Positions 33,423 to 37,317 of a stretch of 64,000 bases of DNA are shown in pieces (within the stretch, counting starts at the first letter, position 1; each line of letters starts with the position of its first letter). Both the position numbers and the translations under genes were made by a program. The notes beneath the pieces were generated by a model, which was not told where the DNA came from, ran no database searches, and saw only the letters and a program-made list of their open reading frames with translations. The stretch is from Microlunatus speluncae (GTDB taxonomy: Bacteria > Actinomycetota > Actinomycetes > Propionibacteriales > Propionibacteriaceae), in NCBI RefSeq assembly GCF_009299835.1, contig NZ_VKCZ01000006.1, positions 1-64,000 of the forward strand, in the 5' to 3' direction.

Positions 33423-33515
33423 GATCAGATATTAGTTCGCGGCTTTCCGCTATTGGCCGGATCGATCGGCCTTGGCACTGTGTTGATCAACGACCCAGAC
33501 CTCGAGGGGGCCACC

Positions 33516-34451
33516 ATGACCTCACTGCTCGCCACCGGCACCGATCACCCGGCGCTGCGGCGGTTCGACCGCCCGGATGCGGAGTTCGCCCGGCACTTCG
33601 CCGAACACGGCTTCGCGCTGCTGGCCGACGGGCTCAGCGCCGAGGAGGTGGCCGCGGTCAATGACGACGCGCTCCGGCTCTGCCGCGGTGATCTGGGCGA
33701 GATCTACAACGGCTGGCGGGACAGCGACGATCCGCACAGCGCCCCGGCCGACATCGCCACCCGGACCGACGAGGAGGTGCTGCGCTCCTTCCTCTGCATC
33801 CACTTCCCGCACAAGGTGTCAGAGGCGTCGCTGGCCGCGCTGACCGCGCCGCGGATCGTGGACGCGCTGGTCTCGGTGATCGGCCCCAACGTCAAGGCGA
33901 TGCAGTCGATGCTGTTCATCAAGTCCGAGGGCAAGCCCGGCCAGGCCTGGCACCAGGACGAGTTCTTCATCCCCACCCGGGACCGGTCGCTGACCGCGGT
34001 CTGGATCGCGCTGGATGACGCGACGATCGAGAACGGCTGCCTCTGGGTGCAGCCCGGTTCGCACCGCCGCGGCGTGATCTATCCCTCCAAGGAGCAGAAC
34101 GATCCGCGCTTCGACTGCACCGGCGAGGCGTACGACTTCCCCTACGCCGACGAGGATGCGGTCCCGGTCGAGATCCCGGCCGGCACGGCGTTGATCTTCA
34201 ACGGCTACCTGCTGCACCGGTCGCTGGAGAACTCCGGCAAGCACGGCTACCGGCGGGCCCTGGCCAACCACTATATGAGCGCCGAGTCGCTGCTGCCGTG
34301 GCGCCTGCCGACCGAGGGCGAACACATGGCCACCGCCGACTTCCGCGACATTCTGCTGGTGGCCGGCGAGGATCCGTATGCGTACAAGGGAATCGTCGAC
34401 GAACACCGCCCCATGTCCCGCGCCGACAAAGACGGCGGCTGCGACCGCTGA
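33516..34451 (+). CDS. Phytanoyl-CoA dioxygenase (PhyH)-family enzyme, copy 1
   Basis: A 311-residue Fe(II)/2-oxoglutarate oxygenase-like protein. The metal triad is visible as H-x-D in AWHQDEFFIPTRD and the distal H in YLLHRSLENSGKHGYRRALANHY, which also has the Arg that binds 2-oxoglutarate. Such proteins hydroxylate fatty or other metabolites; in actinobacteria they often sit beside sugar regulators. ATG 33516 is chosen because GAGGGGG precedes it; the frame is open upstream to 33453. Its TGA is the first base set of a long palindrome shared with the convergent exporter gene. Confidence 0.88.
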   Translation: MTSLLATGTDHPALRRFDRPDAEFARHFAEHGFALLADGLSAEEVAAVNDDALRLCRGDLGEIYNGWRDSDDPHSAPADIATRTDEEVLRSFLCIHFPHKVSEASLAALTAPRIVDALVSVIGPNVKAMQSMLFIKSEGKPGQAWHQDEFFIPTRDRSLTAVWIALDDATIENGCLWVQPGSHRRGVIYPSKEQNDPRFDCTGEAYDFPYADEDAVPVEIPAGTALIFNGYLLHRSLENSGKHGYRRALANHYMSAESLLPWRLPTEGEHMATADFRDILLVAGEDPYAYKGIVDEHRPMSRADKDGGCDR

Positions 34452-34464
34452 CCCAACACCTACC

Positions 34465-34524
34465 ACCCCGAGTTGTCAGAATTAGGGAACGCTATAGCGT
34501 GCCCTAATTCTGACAAGTCGGGGT
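34465..34524. terminator. 60-bp palindrome between convergent genes, copy 1
   Basis: A palindrome centred at 34494/34495: the 15-bp arms TTGTCAGAATTAGGG (34473-34487) and CCCTAATTCTGACAA (34502-34516) plus the 12-bp core ACGCTATAGCGT, extended by ACCCCGA / TCGGGGT blocks. It lies 13 bases after the PhyH gene stop (34451) and ends 5 bases before the exporter stop (34529), so it can terminate both. A second copy with the same core and outer block lies at 36408-36473. Confidence 0.85.
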
Positions 34525-34528
34525 TGGG

Positions 34529-36250
34529 TCAGCCTTTGAAGAGGCGGGAGAAGGGGCCGGTCCCGGTGATCAGGTCGGGGTACGTGCCCGATTCGACGAT
34601 GCGGCCGTCGTCGAAGACATAGATCCGGTCCATGCCGCGGAGGGTCGTCGCCCGGTGCGAGACGACGATGGTGATCCGCTCCTGCTTGGTCCGGCGCAGC
34701 TCGTCGAAGATCATCCGCTCGGCCTCGGCGTCGACCGCCGACGTCGGTTCGTCGAGGATCCAGATCCCAGCGGCCCGCAGGTGGATCCGGGCCAGCGCCA
34801 GGCGCTGCCACTGTCCTCCGGAGAGGCCGGGGCCGCTCCACTGCTGGCCGAGTTGAGTGTCCAGGCCGTCCGGCAGCCGGTCGACCAGAGTGTCGGCGTG
34901 GGCATCGGTCAGGGCGGCCCGCAGTTCATGATCATCGGCCGGGCGGGGCCGGCCGAGGCCGACGACGTCGCGCACCGTGAACTCGTACCGGCCGAACTCC
35001 TGGGTCAACAGCCCGAACCGGCCCAGCCGCTCGGTGATCGACAGTCCGGCCAGATCGACGCCGTCGATCGCCACCCGGCCCGACCGCAGCCCGACGGTGC
35101 CGAGCAGCGCGTTGACGCAGGTCGTCTTTCCGGCACCGTTGATCCCGACCAGGGCGATCATTTCGCCGCGCCGGGCGGTCAGCGACACGTCGTGCAGCAC
35201 CGCCGGACCGTCGCCGTAGCCGACCGTGATCGCCTCGCAGGACAGCGTCTCCGCCGACCGGTCGATCGACTGGATCGGCACCAACGGCACCGACTCGACG
35301 AGGCGGCGGTAGGTGATCGCCTTCGGCGCGGCCGAGACGATGATGCCGATCGCGAAGCCGGCGTAGCGGATCCCGGCCAGTCCGGCCACCGTGCCCAACA
35401 CGGCTGCCGCGGCACCGGCGGTGTTGGCCCCGCCGACCACCAGCGCCGCCAAAGCACCGGCCAGCAGCAGCGCGGTGGCCAGGCCGGACAGCAGATCCAT
35501 CCGCTGTCCGACGGCGATCATGGAATCGAGCACGCGGAGGGCGGCGCGGCGCTCGCCGGCAGCGAGCTCGGCCACCCGGCCGGCCGTGCCGAGCGTCGCC
35601 AGTTCGGTGCCGGTGCGTTCCCGGATCACCTGCTCGGTCGCGTAGCCGGCCCGGTGCTGGTGCCGGGCCAGGATCGGCCAACCGCGCGTCTCGGCCCGGG
35701 CGATCACCGTGTGGCCGAACACGGTCGGCAGCAGGGCCGCGCCGACCAGGATCGCCGTCACCGGGTTGATCAAGAACAGCGAGCCGCACAGGGCGAGAGC
35801 CGAGATCAACATGCTCACCACCTCGATCACCTTGCTGGACAGCTTGTCGATCTCCTCGCAGGCCGCCCGGCTGGCCTCGATCTCGGTGCCGACCGACGCG
35901 TCGGACAACGCGCCGGGTGGCAGCCGGGACACCGCGGTCAGTAGGTCGGCCTGCAGGCGGAAGCGCAGCCGCAGCCACATCCGCTGGGCCAGCGTCATCG
36001 CGACCTGGGACAGCGGATAGCTCAGCCCGACCACCGCGGTGACGCCCAGCAACGGTCCGGCCAGATCACCGGGTGTCCCGCCGTCGAGTCGGGTGATCAA
36101 GGCCTGGACCATGATCACTTGGAGCGCCGGCAGCAGCGCTTGGACCAATGTGAGCAGGCCGTAGCCGGCCAGCCAACCGGGAGTTCGGCGGGCCGACAGC
36201 CGGAGGCTCCAGCAAGCGGCGGGAAGGGCGGACAGCAGGGACGACGGCAT
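34529..36250 (-). CDS. ABC exporter, fused membrane and ATPase domains
   Basis: A 573-residue half-transporter. About six helices in residues 1-290 are followed by an ATPase domain with Walker A GINGAGKTTCVN, signature GLSGGQWQRLALARI and Walker B IWILDEPTSAVD, then VSHRATTLRGMDRIYVFDDGRIVESGTYPDLI. It would act as a homodimer or with an unseen partner to export lipid, peptide or drug. The start at ATG 36250 gives a normal exporter N-terminus; an ATG at 36403 adds 51 polar, low-complexity residues and is less likely. It is flanked on both sides by copies of one long palindrome. Confidence 0.88.
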   Translation of the reverse strand: MPSSLLSALPAACWSLRLSARRTPGWLAGYGLLTLVQALLPALQVIMVQALITRLDGGTPGDLAGPLLGVTAVVGLSYPLSQVAMTLAQRMWLRLRFRLQADLLTAVSRLPPGALSDASVGTEIEASRAACEEIDKLSSKVIEVVSMLISALALCGSLFLINPVTAILVGAALLPTVFGHTVIARAETRGWPILARHQHRAGYATEQVIRERTGTELATLGTAGRVAELAAGERRAALRVLDSMIAVGQRMDLLSGLATALLLAGALAALVVGGANTAGAAAAVLGTVAGLAGIRYAGFAIGIIVSAAPKAITYRRLVESVPLVPIQSIDRSAETLSCEAITVGYGDGPAVLHDVSLTARRGEMIALVGINGAGKTTCVNALLGTVGLRSGRVAIDGVDLAGLSITERLGRFGLLTQEFGRYEFTVRDVVGLGRPRPADDHELRAALTDAHADTLVDRLPDGLDTQLGQQWSGPGLSGGQWQRLALARIHLRAAGIWILDEPTSAVDAEAERMIFDELRRTKQERITIVVSHRATTLRGMDRIYVFDDGRIVESGTYPDLITGTGPFSRLFKG

Positions 36251-36407
36251 CGAAGGCACCAAGTTTCTTGATCGATTCGGGTGGGATCGAAGCCCGGGCA
36301 CGCTCGCGCCCCCTGAGCGCTGCGTATCTACCGGGCTCCCACCAAATGCGATGCCGTCTCGTCGCCGAGACCCAGAGGCAGATGGCCGAAGGTTGAATCT
36401 CACCCTA

Positions 36408-36473
36408 CCAACCCCGAGTTGTCAGACTCTGGGCACGCTATAGCGTGCCTAGAGTCTGACAAGTCGGGGTTGG
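36408..36473. terminator. 66-bp palindrome, copy 2
   Basis: Centred at 36440/36441, with almost complete symmetry over 66 bp. It shares the core GCACGCTATAGCGTGC and the outer block CCCCGAGTTGTCAGA with copy 1, but differs between (CTCTGG against ATTAGG), with compensating changes on the opposite arm. It ends 2 bases before the stop of the minus-strand permease gene (36475), as copy 1 ends 5 bases before the exporter stop. Confidence 0.85.
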
Positions 36474-36474
36474 G

Positions 36475-37317
36475 TCAGCCTTTGAGGCCGGTTTCGGCTA
36501 CGCCTTGGACGAGGTAGCGCTGGAGGAAGACGAAGACCAGGACGAGGGGGGCGATGGCTACGGCGGCGGCGAGGAAGAGCTCGTGCAGGTTGATCGTCTG
36601 GGCGGTCATCAGGGTGGAGAGGGCGACCTGGACGGTCCACATGTCCGAGCTCTGACCGATCACCAGCGGCCAGAGGAAGGAGTTCCAGCTGTTGATGAAG
36701 GTGATCACCGCGATCGCGGAGAAGAAGGCCAGCGAGTTGGGCACCACGATCTGCCAGTAGGCCCGGAACCAGCCGAGACCGTCGACCCGGGCGGCCTCCT
36801 CCAGCTCCTTCGGGAAGTTGAGGAAGTACTGCCGGAACAGGAAGGTGGTCAGCCCGCTGAACAGGGTCGGCACGATGATGCCCTGCAGGGTGTCCACCCA
36901 GCGCAGTTGGGAGACGATGATGAAGCTCGGGATGAACGTCACCGCGGCCGGGATCATCAGCGTGACCAGGGTGGCGTAGAAGATCTTGTTCGCGTGCCGG
37001 TACGGGATCCGGGCCAGGCCGTAGCCGGCCAGCGACGACAGCAGCAACTGGCCCAGCGTCTGCAGCACGGCGACGATCGCCGAGTTCTTCAGGCCGCCCA
37101 GGATGTTGACCGACCGGTCGGTGAACAGCTCGGTGAAGTTGGCCCACTGCAGCTCGGTCGGGAAGAACGTCCAGTTCGGCGAGGTGATCTCCACCTCGGT
37201 CGACAAACCGTTGCGCAGCACGAGATAGAACGGGATCAGGAACAGCACGGCCGCGATGATCAGCACCAGGTAGCGGACGATGGCGCCGGCGATCCGGGCT
37301 CCGCGGGCGCTATTCAT
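36475..37317 (-). CDS. Sugar ABC importer permease (MalG-like)
   Basis: A 280-residue permease with six helices (YLVLIIAAVLFLIPFYLVLRNGLS onward) and the coupling loop EEAARVDGLGWFRAYWQIVVPNS. AVITFINSWNSFLWPLVIG is typical of MalG/UgpE permeases. It starts at ATG 37317 and ends with VQGVAETGLKG. It is the last gene of a receptor-permease-permease operon read leftwards, with a 52-bp gap to the preceding gene that contains a short imperfect palindrome (CCCCGCGGAAACG / CGTTTTCGTGGGG). No ATPase partner is local. Confidence 0.9.
   Translation of the reverse strand: MNSARGARIAGAIVRYLVLIIAAVLFLIPFYLVLRNGLSTEVEITSPNWTFFPTELQWANFTELFTDRSVNILGGLKNSAIVAVLQTLGQLLLSSLAGYGLARIPYRHANKIFYATLVTLMIPAAVTFIPSFIIVSQLRWVDTLQGIIVPTLFSGLTTFLFRQYFLNFPKELEEAARVDGLGWFRAYWQIVVPNSLAFFSAIAVITFINSWNSFLWPLVIGQSSDMWTVQVALSTLMTAQTINLHELFLAAAVAIAPLVLVFVFLQRYLVQGVAETGLKG

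Follow-up and report, generated by a model that had tools for sequence, protein, structure and literature searches.

The stretch analysed here, hereafter the window, is a region of 64,000 nucleotides (nt) of Microlunatus speluncae (contig NZ_VKCZ01000006.1, positions 1 to 64,000) in which a dispersed palindromic hairpin repeat occurs twice. Copy 1 is located at 34465..34524 and copy 2 at 36408..36473; neither is assigned a strand. The arms are 30 nt long and 93% complementary in copy 1 and 36 nt long and 94% complementary in copy 2, which confirms the two palindromes of the original prediction. The shared core that it described, ACGCTATAGCGT, forms the tip of both copies (34489..34500 and 36435..36446, no strand), and the common outer block and the changed middle (ATTAGG against CTCTGG) are also found in both. 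The repeat itself has a 44-nt core in each copy (34473-34516 and 36419-36462), which is extended by CCGAG and GTCGG in copy 1. Copy 1 belongs to subfamily II of the repeat and copy 2 is classed in subfamily III, where it sits exactly at the limit of 8 mismatches. The window contains two matches to the pattern TTGTCAGA-N16..40-TCTGACAA, for which shuffled sequences give an expectation of 0.00. The predicted RNA folds of both sites have energies of -47 to -64 kcal/mol, whichever strand is read (z of -10 to -13). A G lies opposite a G beside TTGTCAGA and is a mismatch in both copies, and Watson-Crick pairing fails at one other position in each (A/G in copy 1, G/T in copy 2).

Three genes adjoin the palindromes. 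A phytanoyl-CoA dioxygenase gene (PhyH, PF05721, E=2.3e-37) is encoded on the + strand at 33480..34451, and its 3' end faces copy 1. An ATP-binding cassette (ABC) exporter gene (ABC_tran, 2.2e-24) follows on the - strand at 34529..36250; its start is uncertain and may be 36250 or 36403. A sugar ABC permease gene (BPD_transp_1, 7.2e-20) is on the - strand at 36475..37317, and its "sugar" label was given by eye from the neighbouring permease and binding-protein-like genes. Copy 1 is between two converging stops, 21 nt past that of the dioxygenase and 12 nt past that of the exporter. Copy 2 is 12 nt past the permease stop, at the 3' end of that gene, and 168 nt upstream of the start that the gene finder assigned to the exporter. 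Since a gene ends at each palindrome, each is explained by that gene. The exporter had been described as lying exactly between the palindromes; this is loose, as copy 1 separates the dioxygenase and exporter stops and copy 2 follows the permease stop. The identity of the two copies runs about 16 nt beyond the right arm, through TTGGGTCAGCCTTTGA (34525-34539 and 36471-36485), and takes in the stops of the exporter and the permease together with the final codons of each. This may be chance.

The two palindromes are members of a family of about 267 copies in the M. speluncae genome, the assembly of which is rated 97.4% complete with 7.8% contamination. The pattern TTGTCAGA-N28-TCTGACAA was found 266 times and TTGTCAG-N30-CTGACAA 267 times, while the reversed pattern was found 0 times. 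A genome-wide search for the core ACGCTATAGCGT, as the original prediction had proposed, returned 20 sites. The length of the repeat is nearly fixed. With the gap left free at 24-34, 64 of 66 copies in this genome have the 44-nt core, and with the gap free at 20-50 nearly all of the genus matches listed are of one length, as judged by eye. Rfam gave weak matches only, none of which reached the cut-off of its family.

The repeat is also present outside of M. speluncae. It was found in 14 of 198 genomes of the family, or in 19 of 198 with a looser pattern, five of these with a single copy. A scan of named genomes gave at least 94 stretches with the pattern, and the matches listed include Oerskovia, Isoptericola, Cellulomonas, Antribacter, Luteimicrobium, Krasilnikoviella, Propionicimonas, Nocardioidaceae, Frankiales and others. 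Among the matches listed are 18 stretches from other phyla, in which 1-9 of the 14 inner positions are paired (8-9 in four of the stretches), and viral contigs gave 20 matches with 1-6 of 14 inner pairs. Both sets are read as chance. A TTGTCAGA palindrome with perfectly matched flanks in a metagenome-assembled genome (MAG) of Saprospiraceae (Bacteroidota; L150:1029) is probably an unrelated hairpin.

The anatomy of the repeat was taken from a gapless alignment of 64 M. speluncae copies (61 distinct). These came from the window and from 40 stretches among the first listed places (contigs C1-C6), and are not a random sample. The element consists of CCGAS-TTGTCAGA, a 9-bp variable stem with matched arms, the tip YSCYMKRGSR and the mirror half. 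CCGAS and TTGTCAGA (the outer box) are nearly invariant, in the case of TTGTCAGA partly because it was used to pick the copies. The flanks, where a miniature inverted-repeat element (MITE) with a parent insertion sequence would show a target-site duplication, share little beyond about 7 nt, except in the window pair and in a trio on contig C3 (L055:316-568). In the trio, three copies spaced 104 bp apart with repeated flanks form a small tandem array of palindrome and flank.

The arms of the stem match each other within the alignment. Paired cells make up 90.2% in the 64 copies, compared to 82.7% after shuffling (0 of 500 shuffles) and 27-37% with the arms slid, and the covariation score is 0.282 compared to 0.140 (0 of 500). 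No excess over the shuffles is seen in pairs changed on both sides, of which there are 11 against 11.9 (476 of 500 shuffles reach this number), or in further pair types, with 28 against 30.5 (479 of 500); relatedness of the copies distorts these two measures the least. Because the copies are related, arms were also swapped within groups and the stem mismatches per element counted. Matching within elements is clear in four of the eight groups: M. speluncae subfamily II (1.17 mismatches against 2.24 swapped, n=12, p 0.0004), subfamily III (0.78 against 1.73, n=9, p 0.018), PROP2 (1.36 against 3.53, n=14, p 0.0002) and Propionicimonas AF21 (2.27 against 3.97, n=11, p 0.0004). Three groups have the same trend without significance, namely Chersky_165 (1.5 against 1.71, n=6, p 0.41), UBA6238 (1.6 against 2.16, n=5, p 0.14) and M. 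speluncae subfamily I, and in one, Oerskovia enterophila, it is absent; the latter two are weighed below. The maintained pairing of the original prediction is thus mostly supported and extends beyond the two window copies in the comparison with shuffles and in half of the groups, but not in the double changes or the pair types.

The pairing differs along the element. The tip of M. speluncae subfamilies I-III is matched no better than with swapped arms, and worse in subfamily I (2.48 against 2.03), whereas the tip of AF21 is matched (1.27 against 2.04, p 0.001). In genome G501, the repeat of which has another box, the four positions after the box are matched (1.79 against 2.40, p 0.007) and the next five are not; 24 of its 25 listed copies were used, with one tandem near-duplicate excluded. 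The position beside TTGTCAGA in M. speluncae is G or C on each side regardless of pairing (33 of 64 paired, 35 expected), while the position beside the box is paired in 12/14 copies of PROP2, 8/11 of AF21 and 9/9 of Oerskovia. Template-switch repair should have mended the unpaired position. Therefore, the stem pairing in the M. speluncae genome seems to be kept by selection rather than by such repair.

The repeat is located mainly at the 3' ends of genes, as judged from approximate gene calls made with our own simple codon-based gene finder. The 63 exact M. speluncae copies examined are between convergent genes in 30 cases, tandem genes in 23 and divergent genes in 4, with 3 inside a predicted gene and 3 at an edge; the convergent excess and divergent deficit are significant against intergenic length (p 4e-6). 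The 75 named loci have 18 convergent, 36 tandem, 6 divergent, 12 inside and 7 edge sites (p 3e-4). For this count, 19 of the 94 loci were excluded by eye as chance-like (18 non-actinobacterial stretches and L094, which is titled Actinobacteria and has 5 inner pairs), and four further elements with fewer than 15 of 22 pairs were removed by rule. The 16 genus loci have 7 convergent, 5 tandem, 1 divergent and 1 inside sites (p 0.3). Between tandem genes, 57 of 64 copies are closer to the upstream stop. The median distance to the nearest stop, over convergent and tandem sites only, is 12 nt in M. speluncae, 18.5 nt in the named loci and 8 nt in the genus loci.

A protein-coding gene is associated with the repeat. 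Where two copies are about 1 kb apart (roughly 1.05 kb), the gene between them encodes the same protein in three genomes (L087, L117 and L005). Residues ~12-185 of this protein match PADLOC models of AbiEi, with 67/68 and 65/68 members matched by two models, and Pfam AbiEi_4 matches 16/68 members at E<=0.01. The C-terminal part matches DUF559 in 19/68 members at E<=0.01, and the 68-member profile (A2) matches the endonuclease-like structure 3hrl (E 2.5e-4). E207, D239 and H259 are invariant in the 68 members. These residues may fit a Vsr-like active site; E, D and H are typical of EDxHD/Vsr-like nucleases. Structure models were of little help: the predicted local distance difference test (pLDDT) was 38.4 for a single-sequence model (useless) and 58.6 for a four-sequence AlphaFold model (weak). 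The first Foldseek match of this low-confidence model is the Streptococcus agalactiae AbiEi (6y8q_A, E 2.1e-4) with a TM-score of just 0.15-0.19, and a fold alignment of 3hrl to the C-terminus of the pLDDT 58.6 model gives a Z of 5.4, no better than the unrelated top row. We propose that the protein joins an AbiEi-type DNA-binding region and a predicted Vsr-like (DUF559, PD-(D/E)XK-type) nuclease in a single chain, hereafter the AbiEi-nuclease.

Strong orthologues of this gene (53-100% identity, E<1e-70) are present as 9 copies in 8 of the 198 genomes of the family. All nine have a palindrome of the repeat on each side, with 15-22 of 22 positions paired and starts 1,017-1,077 nt apart. The flanking palindromes carry the TTGTCAGC form of the box in three genomes (G005, G015 and G010). 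The gene is split in G010 and has a C-terminal frameshift in G001. One genome (G018) has 8 exact palindrome copies only, two of which bracket the gene. A strong orthologue is found in 8/14 genomes with at least 2 copies of the repeat compared to 0/184 with fewer (Fisher 6e-11). M. speluncae itself has two strong copies with unlike stems, one on contig C11 with subfamily I palindromes and one on C6 with subfamily III palindromes. Within 8 mismatches, 52 of the 64 sampled repeat copies match one of these flanking palindromes, 43 the first and 9 the second, and near-identical or identical middles are found at unrelated loci. The genome also has seven more distant homologues, with a clear pair of quite different palindromes at two (C2:218256 and C7) and a weak pair at one (C9). 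At these three loci (L373 at C2:218256, L375 at C9:163284 and L378 at C7:111486) the bracketing palindromes, marked by GGTCAACTTGGCCG, TGCGTTTCTC (the weak pair) and AGTTGCAGC, respectively, are unrelated. They represent parallel systems in one genome, one of them on the contig of the window.

Genomes that share a pair of neighbouring genes may or may not have the palindrome-nuclease-palindrome unit between them. G165 and G163 have the unit, with one palindrome on each side of the nuclease gene, between icd and a glycosyltransferase gene. G164, G170, G167 and G151 have icd (89-96% identity) and, after it, this glycosyltransferase gene, with neither the nuclease nor a palindrome just past icd. 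The unit is present at 3 of 22 icd loci (G165, G001 and G015), a lone palindrome at 1 (G004) and neither at 18; these are the 22 that were read of 30 loci returned. In G015 the unit is between a ugd-like gene and icd, and in M. speluncae it is beside a ugd-like gene, which was named by eye. The nuclease gene is often next to genes resembling those of the tricarboxylic acid cycle, again by eye (L289-L292, L087 and L117): icd, a monomeric isocitrate dehydrogenase-like gene (G018 and G010) and a malate-dehydrogenase-like gene (G005).

The association extends across the class. A profile search found a homologue in 151/394 genomes of the class, and 62 loci with high-scoring matches (not a random draw) were examined, 57 of them with both flanks. 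Matching palindromes bracket the gene better than in the best of 32 ABC control loci at 42 of the 57 loci (0/32 controls), and 37 of the 57 exceed the 99th percentile of 5,224 cross-locus pairs, as do 6 of 16 distant loci in the family. This statistic was the third tried, and its cross-locus control shares boxes with the cases, which makes it conservative. The first, a strict inverted-repeat score, was at least 12 on both sides in 4/25 nuclease loci, with similar palindromes in 6/25 and 0/32 controls. A gapped local alignment of whole flanks (30/59 above threshold) was dropped, since it aligned long stretches of GC-rich flank and misplaced truncated loci.

The bracketing palindromes of distant homologues often carry another box, and the box varies by clade (TTGTCAG, GACGTCATACG, GTCGTGTGCC, GATCTTGG, TTTGGACCC and more). 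Over 54 of the 68 loci, similarity of the nuclease is correlated with similarity of the outer box (Mantel r 0.36, p 0.001, the floor of 1,000 permutations) and of the inner stem (r 0.19, p 0.001), and is not correlated with that of the tip (r 0.02, p 0.35). The box correlation is no proof of recognition, since related species share both. In genomes with two such loci the boxes of the paralogues are unlike in 6 of 8 (outer similarity 0.23-0.57), and alike in G000 (0.84) and G239 (0.76). A box can also be read from the flanks of the nuclease. The pattern GTCATACG-N24-CGTATGAC, taken from three loci (L308, L314 and L324), is found in 13/61 genomes of that family at 1-40 copies (control 0); the counts include the flanks themselves, which are 2 of 3 in G435 and 3 of 25 in G501. 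One genome (G647) has two inner-stem subfamilies, AAGTGGYYGC and AATCGTGGCC, under one GTCATACG box, similar to subfamilies I-III of M. speluncae.

These results establish a large, structured and box-specific repeat family that is coupled to one protein family. Its abundance, near-fixed length and 3'-end placement, the arm matching in M. speluncae and two other genomes and the coupling to the nuclease gene are all direct observations. The palindromes are probably copies of a dispersed hairpin family of the repetitive extragenic palindrome (REP) type with a dedicated AbiEi-nuclease. The association of repeat and nuclease is strong, mobilisation is what we infer from it, and the pair hints at a new kind of mobile-repeat system. 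In the proposed mechanism, the AbiEi part would bind the outer boxes, as each half-site is about 22 nt long compared to the two 23-bp inverted repeats of AbiEi. The nuclease would nick or cut the extruded or single-stranded hairpin. Copying in trans would then place single hairpins at new sites, and the nuclease gene itself would remain at its one or two loci in the chromosome. The hairpins would persist mainly just past stops, where a stable hairpin on both strands may be tolerated or may be useful as a bidirectional transcript end. The broader claim is evenly poised. It holds that 44-48 nt hairpins copied in trans by AbiEi-nuclease fusions form a new class, with parallel box-specific systems across Actinomycetota and several per genome, independent of REP elements and their transposases and with a restriction-type nuclease in place of the HuH transposase.

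Several results weigh against this explanation. No movement was observed, and no target duplication or junction was found, although target duplication was not tested systematically. The neighbours of the nuclease gene are unchanged in several species and the plasmid collection gave no match to it, both of which are unlike an active transposon; since the gene keeps its neighbours, it is mostly inherited in place. The arm matching is weak in subfamily I, the most abundant in M. speluncae (1.12 mismatches against 1.26 swapped, n=40, p 0.07), and there is none in Oerskovia enterophila (3.78 against 3.31, n=9, p 0.94). The Oerskovia elements (L078, L110, L122, L143, L153 and L163) keep the box with no arm matching beyond chance and are perhaps a decayed or differently used branch. 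Twelve of the 64 copies, which form subfamily II and include copy 1 of the window, are more than 8 mismatches away from the palindromes at either strong nuclease copy. Four of the nine nuclease homologues of M. speluncae have no palindrome pair, and the flank test fails at 15 of the 57 class-wide loci and, by the stricter cut, at 10 of the 16 distant ones. Six genomes have palindromes without a strong orthologue: G171 (52 copies), G155 (36) and G004, G170, G146 and G011 (2-6). The first two are MAGs that are 80% and 72% complete, and missing contigs or relics would give such a pattern. In the 13 genomes with the GTCATACG box, the presence of the nuclease was checked just for those also in the 394-genome search. 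The smaller, 8-member profile (A1) found no relative in the PDB.

The closest known arrangement is that of REP and REPIN elements with REP-associated tyrosine transposases (RAYTs, or TnpA-REP, of the Y1 HuH type). Both consist of short extragenic palindromes in hundreds of copies, and in both the palindromes flank the gene of the cognate protein, with the AbiEi-nuclease here in the place of the RAYT. The foot tags GTAG and CGTC that are named for REP elements (PMC3733652) were not found beside the hairpin, where CCGAS adjoins TTGTCAGA in nearly all M. speluncae copies read. The REP stem of Escherichia coli has conserved non-pairing positions (PMC8266576), of which the one position beside the box in M. 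speluncae is the counterpart. RAYTs are likewise reported to be mostly inherited in place (PMC3116915). The two systems differ in the protein, which here is AbiEi with a DUF559/Vsr-like domain. No Y1_Tnp transposase (PF01797, RAYT-type) was found in the 20 genomes of the genus at E<=0.001, while the positive control matched in 5/14 known genomes. The element here is also symmetric, 44-48 nt long, and has a box that varies with the nuclease clade. The repeat-nuclease arrangement works like REP/RAYT but, with no Y1 transposase found in the 20 genus genomes, does not qualify as a member of that system. Among the titles and abstract openings listed from the open-access literature there was nothing that joins DUF559 or AbiEi-nuclease proteins to dispersed palindromes.

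The strongest alternative, which is tentative but deserves weight, is that the palindromes are chromosomal operators. Each would be the two-half-site operator of an AbiEi-like regulator, so that the bracket around its own gene represents autoregulation, and the scattered copies would be a regulon, roadblock terminators or nucleoid sites multiplied by selection and ordinary duplication. AbiEi of the AbiE type IV toxin-antitoxin system binds two inverted 23-bp repeats 3 bp apart and represses its own promoter (PMC7319586), and the 44-48 nt palindromes have this geometry. The PADLOC match over residues 12-185 and the retention of the nuclease beside conserved neighbours also agree with an operator. 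The Oerskovia result and the unpaired position peculiar to the M. speluncae genome make the REP-like explanation slightly weaker and the operator explanation slightly stronger. However, a dyad needs only two good half-sites, yet arms match within elements in subfamilies II and III and in two other genomes (p 0.0004, 0.018, 0.0002 and 0.0004), and the near-identical or identical middles at unrelated loci point to copying. The conserved putative catalytic residues also argue against a regulator. The arrangement differs from AbiE in its fused nuclease domain and its dispersed sites genome-wide, and no second gene is between the palindromes in the nuclease loci read. The AbiE toxin, a DUF1814 nucleotidyltransferase, is encoded by an adjacent gene.

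It is improbable that the palindromes are simply bidirectional terminators homogenised within each genome, with the nuclease merely autoregulated or terminated by one of them. The placement (30 convergent, 23 tandem and 4 divergent sites, with tandem copies nearer the upstream stop) and the very stable predicted hairpins are what a terminator would give. Intrinsic terminators are similarly stable GC-rich hairpins just past stops and are enriched between converging genes. The stem of the window copies is not followed by a U-tract; GGGGTTGGGTC is present on the + strand and CTCGGGGT-type sequence on the other. The sequence-specific box, the copied subfamilies and the nuclease also set the repeat apart from intrinsic terminators. 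Termination leaves unexplained why strong orthologues were found in palindrome-bearing genomes only and why the box tracks the nuclease clade, and a palindrome also precedes the nuclease gene.

Slightly less probable still is a selfish or defence-like unit, in which the nuclease acts by homing, restriction or addiction on DNA without or with the palindrome, and the palindromes serve as recognition or protection sites. The invariant E, D and H residues, typical of EDxHD/Vsr-like nucleases, fit such a unit, as do the occupied and empty sites and the one site with a lone palindrome. The C-terminal domain resembles Vsr-like/DUF559 endonucleases (3hrl) and EDxHD homing endonucleases by the DUF559 and 3hrl profiles, and weakly by fold; here it is fused to AbiEi, is tied to dispersed palindromes and is outside of an intron or intein. 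A homing endonuclease would cut an allele that lacks its gene, and the insertion would break the recognition site; occupied and empty sites are seen here, and the flanking palindromes are not broken. With 15-22 of 22 positions paired, both flanking palindromes are intact in most copies and would expose the gene of a homing enzyme to its own cutting. The lack of a second gene between the palindromes in the loci read also counts against the unit. No nuclease was found in the plasmid collection or on viral contigs, and the phage collection gave one weak match (33%) in an unannotated 7.6-kb record.

The original prediction had taken the exporter as a passenger cassette. The closest relative of the exporter in the 20 genus genomes is 49% identical and no close orthologue was found there, while the six best permease orthologues (L210-L215) are 65-87% identical and have no palindrome of the family within the 180 nt read past their stop; L212 has a different small hairpin. 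The exporter and the palindromes are therefore absent together there, as the prediction had expected, but the joint absence is uninformative, since copies often have a neighbour within 3 kb (5/19 adjacent pairs over the 20 places listed on contig C1). In three genus genomes (L192, L218 and L221), ABC genes adjoin a different sequence that is repeated or inverted, CTTCGACAGGCTCAG with its complement. Palindromes specific to an inserted exporter were rejected, since about 267 copies are at the 3' ends of many genes; arrival of the exporter with its two palindromes is extremely unlikely and is refuted in its strong form, as the two copies also belong to different subfamilies and copy 2 is at the permease 3' end. 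The cassette idea instead fits another gene, the AbiEi-nuclease.

REP-type palindromes have been credited to one enzyme family, the Y1 RAYT proteins. A large phylum, to which the main producers of antibiotics belong, seems to use an unrelated protein in a REP-type arrangement, and domain libraries recognise this protein only as an AbiEi antitoxin or as DUF559. A widespread but uncharacterised family, with a match in 151/394 class genomes, thereby gains a testable role, and the DNA site of a family member is predictable from its own flanks. The mode by which single hairpins may be copied becomes testable as well, and in actinobacteria the repeats may mark a group of sites where transcripts end in both directions.

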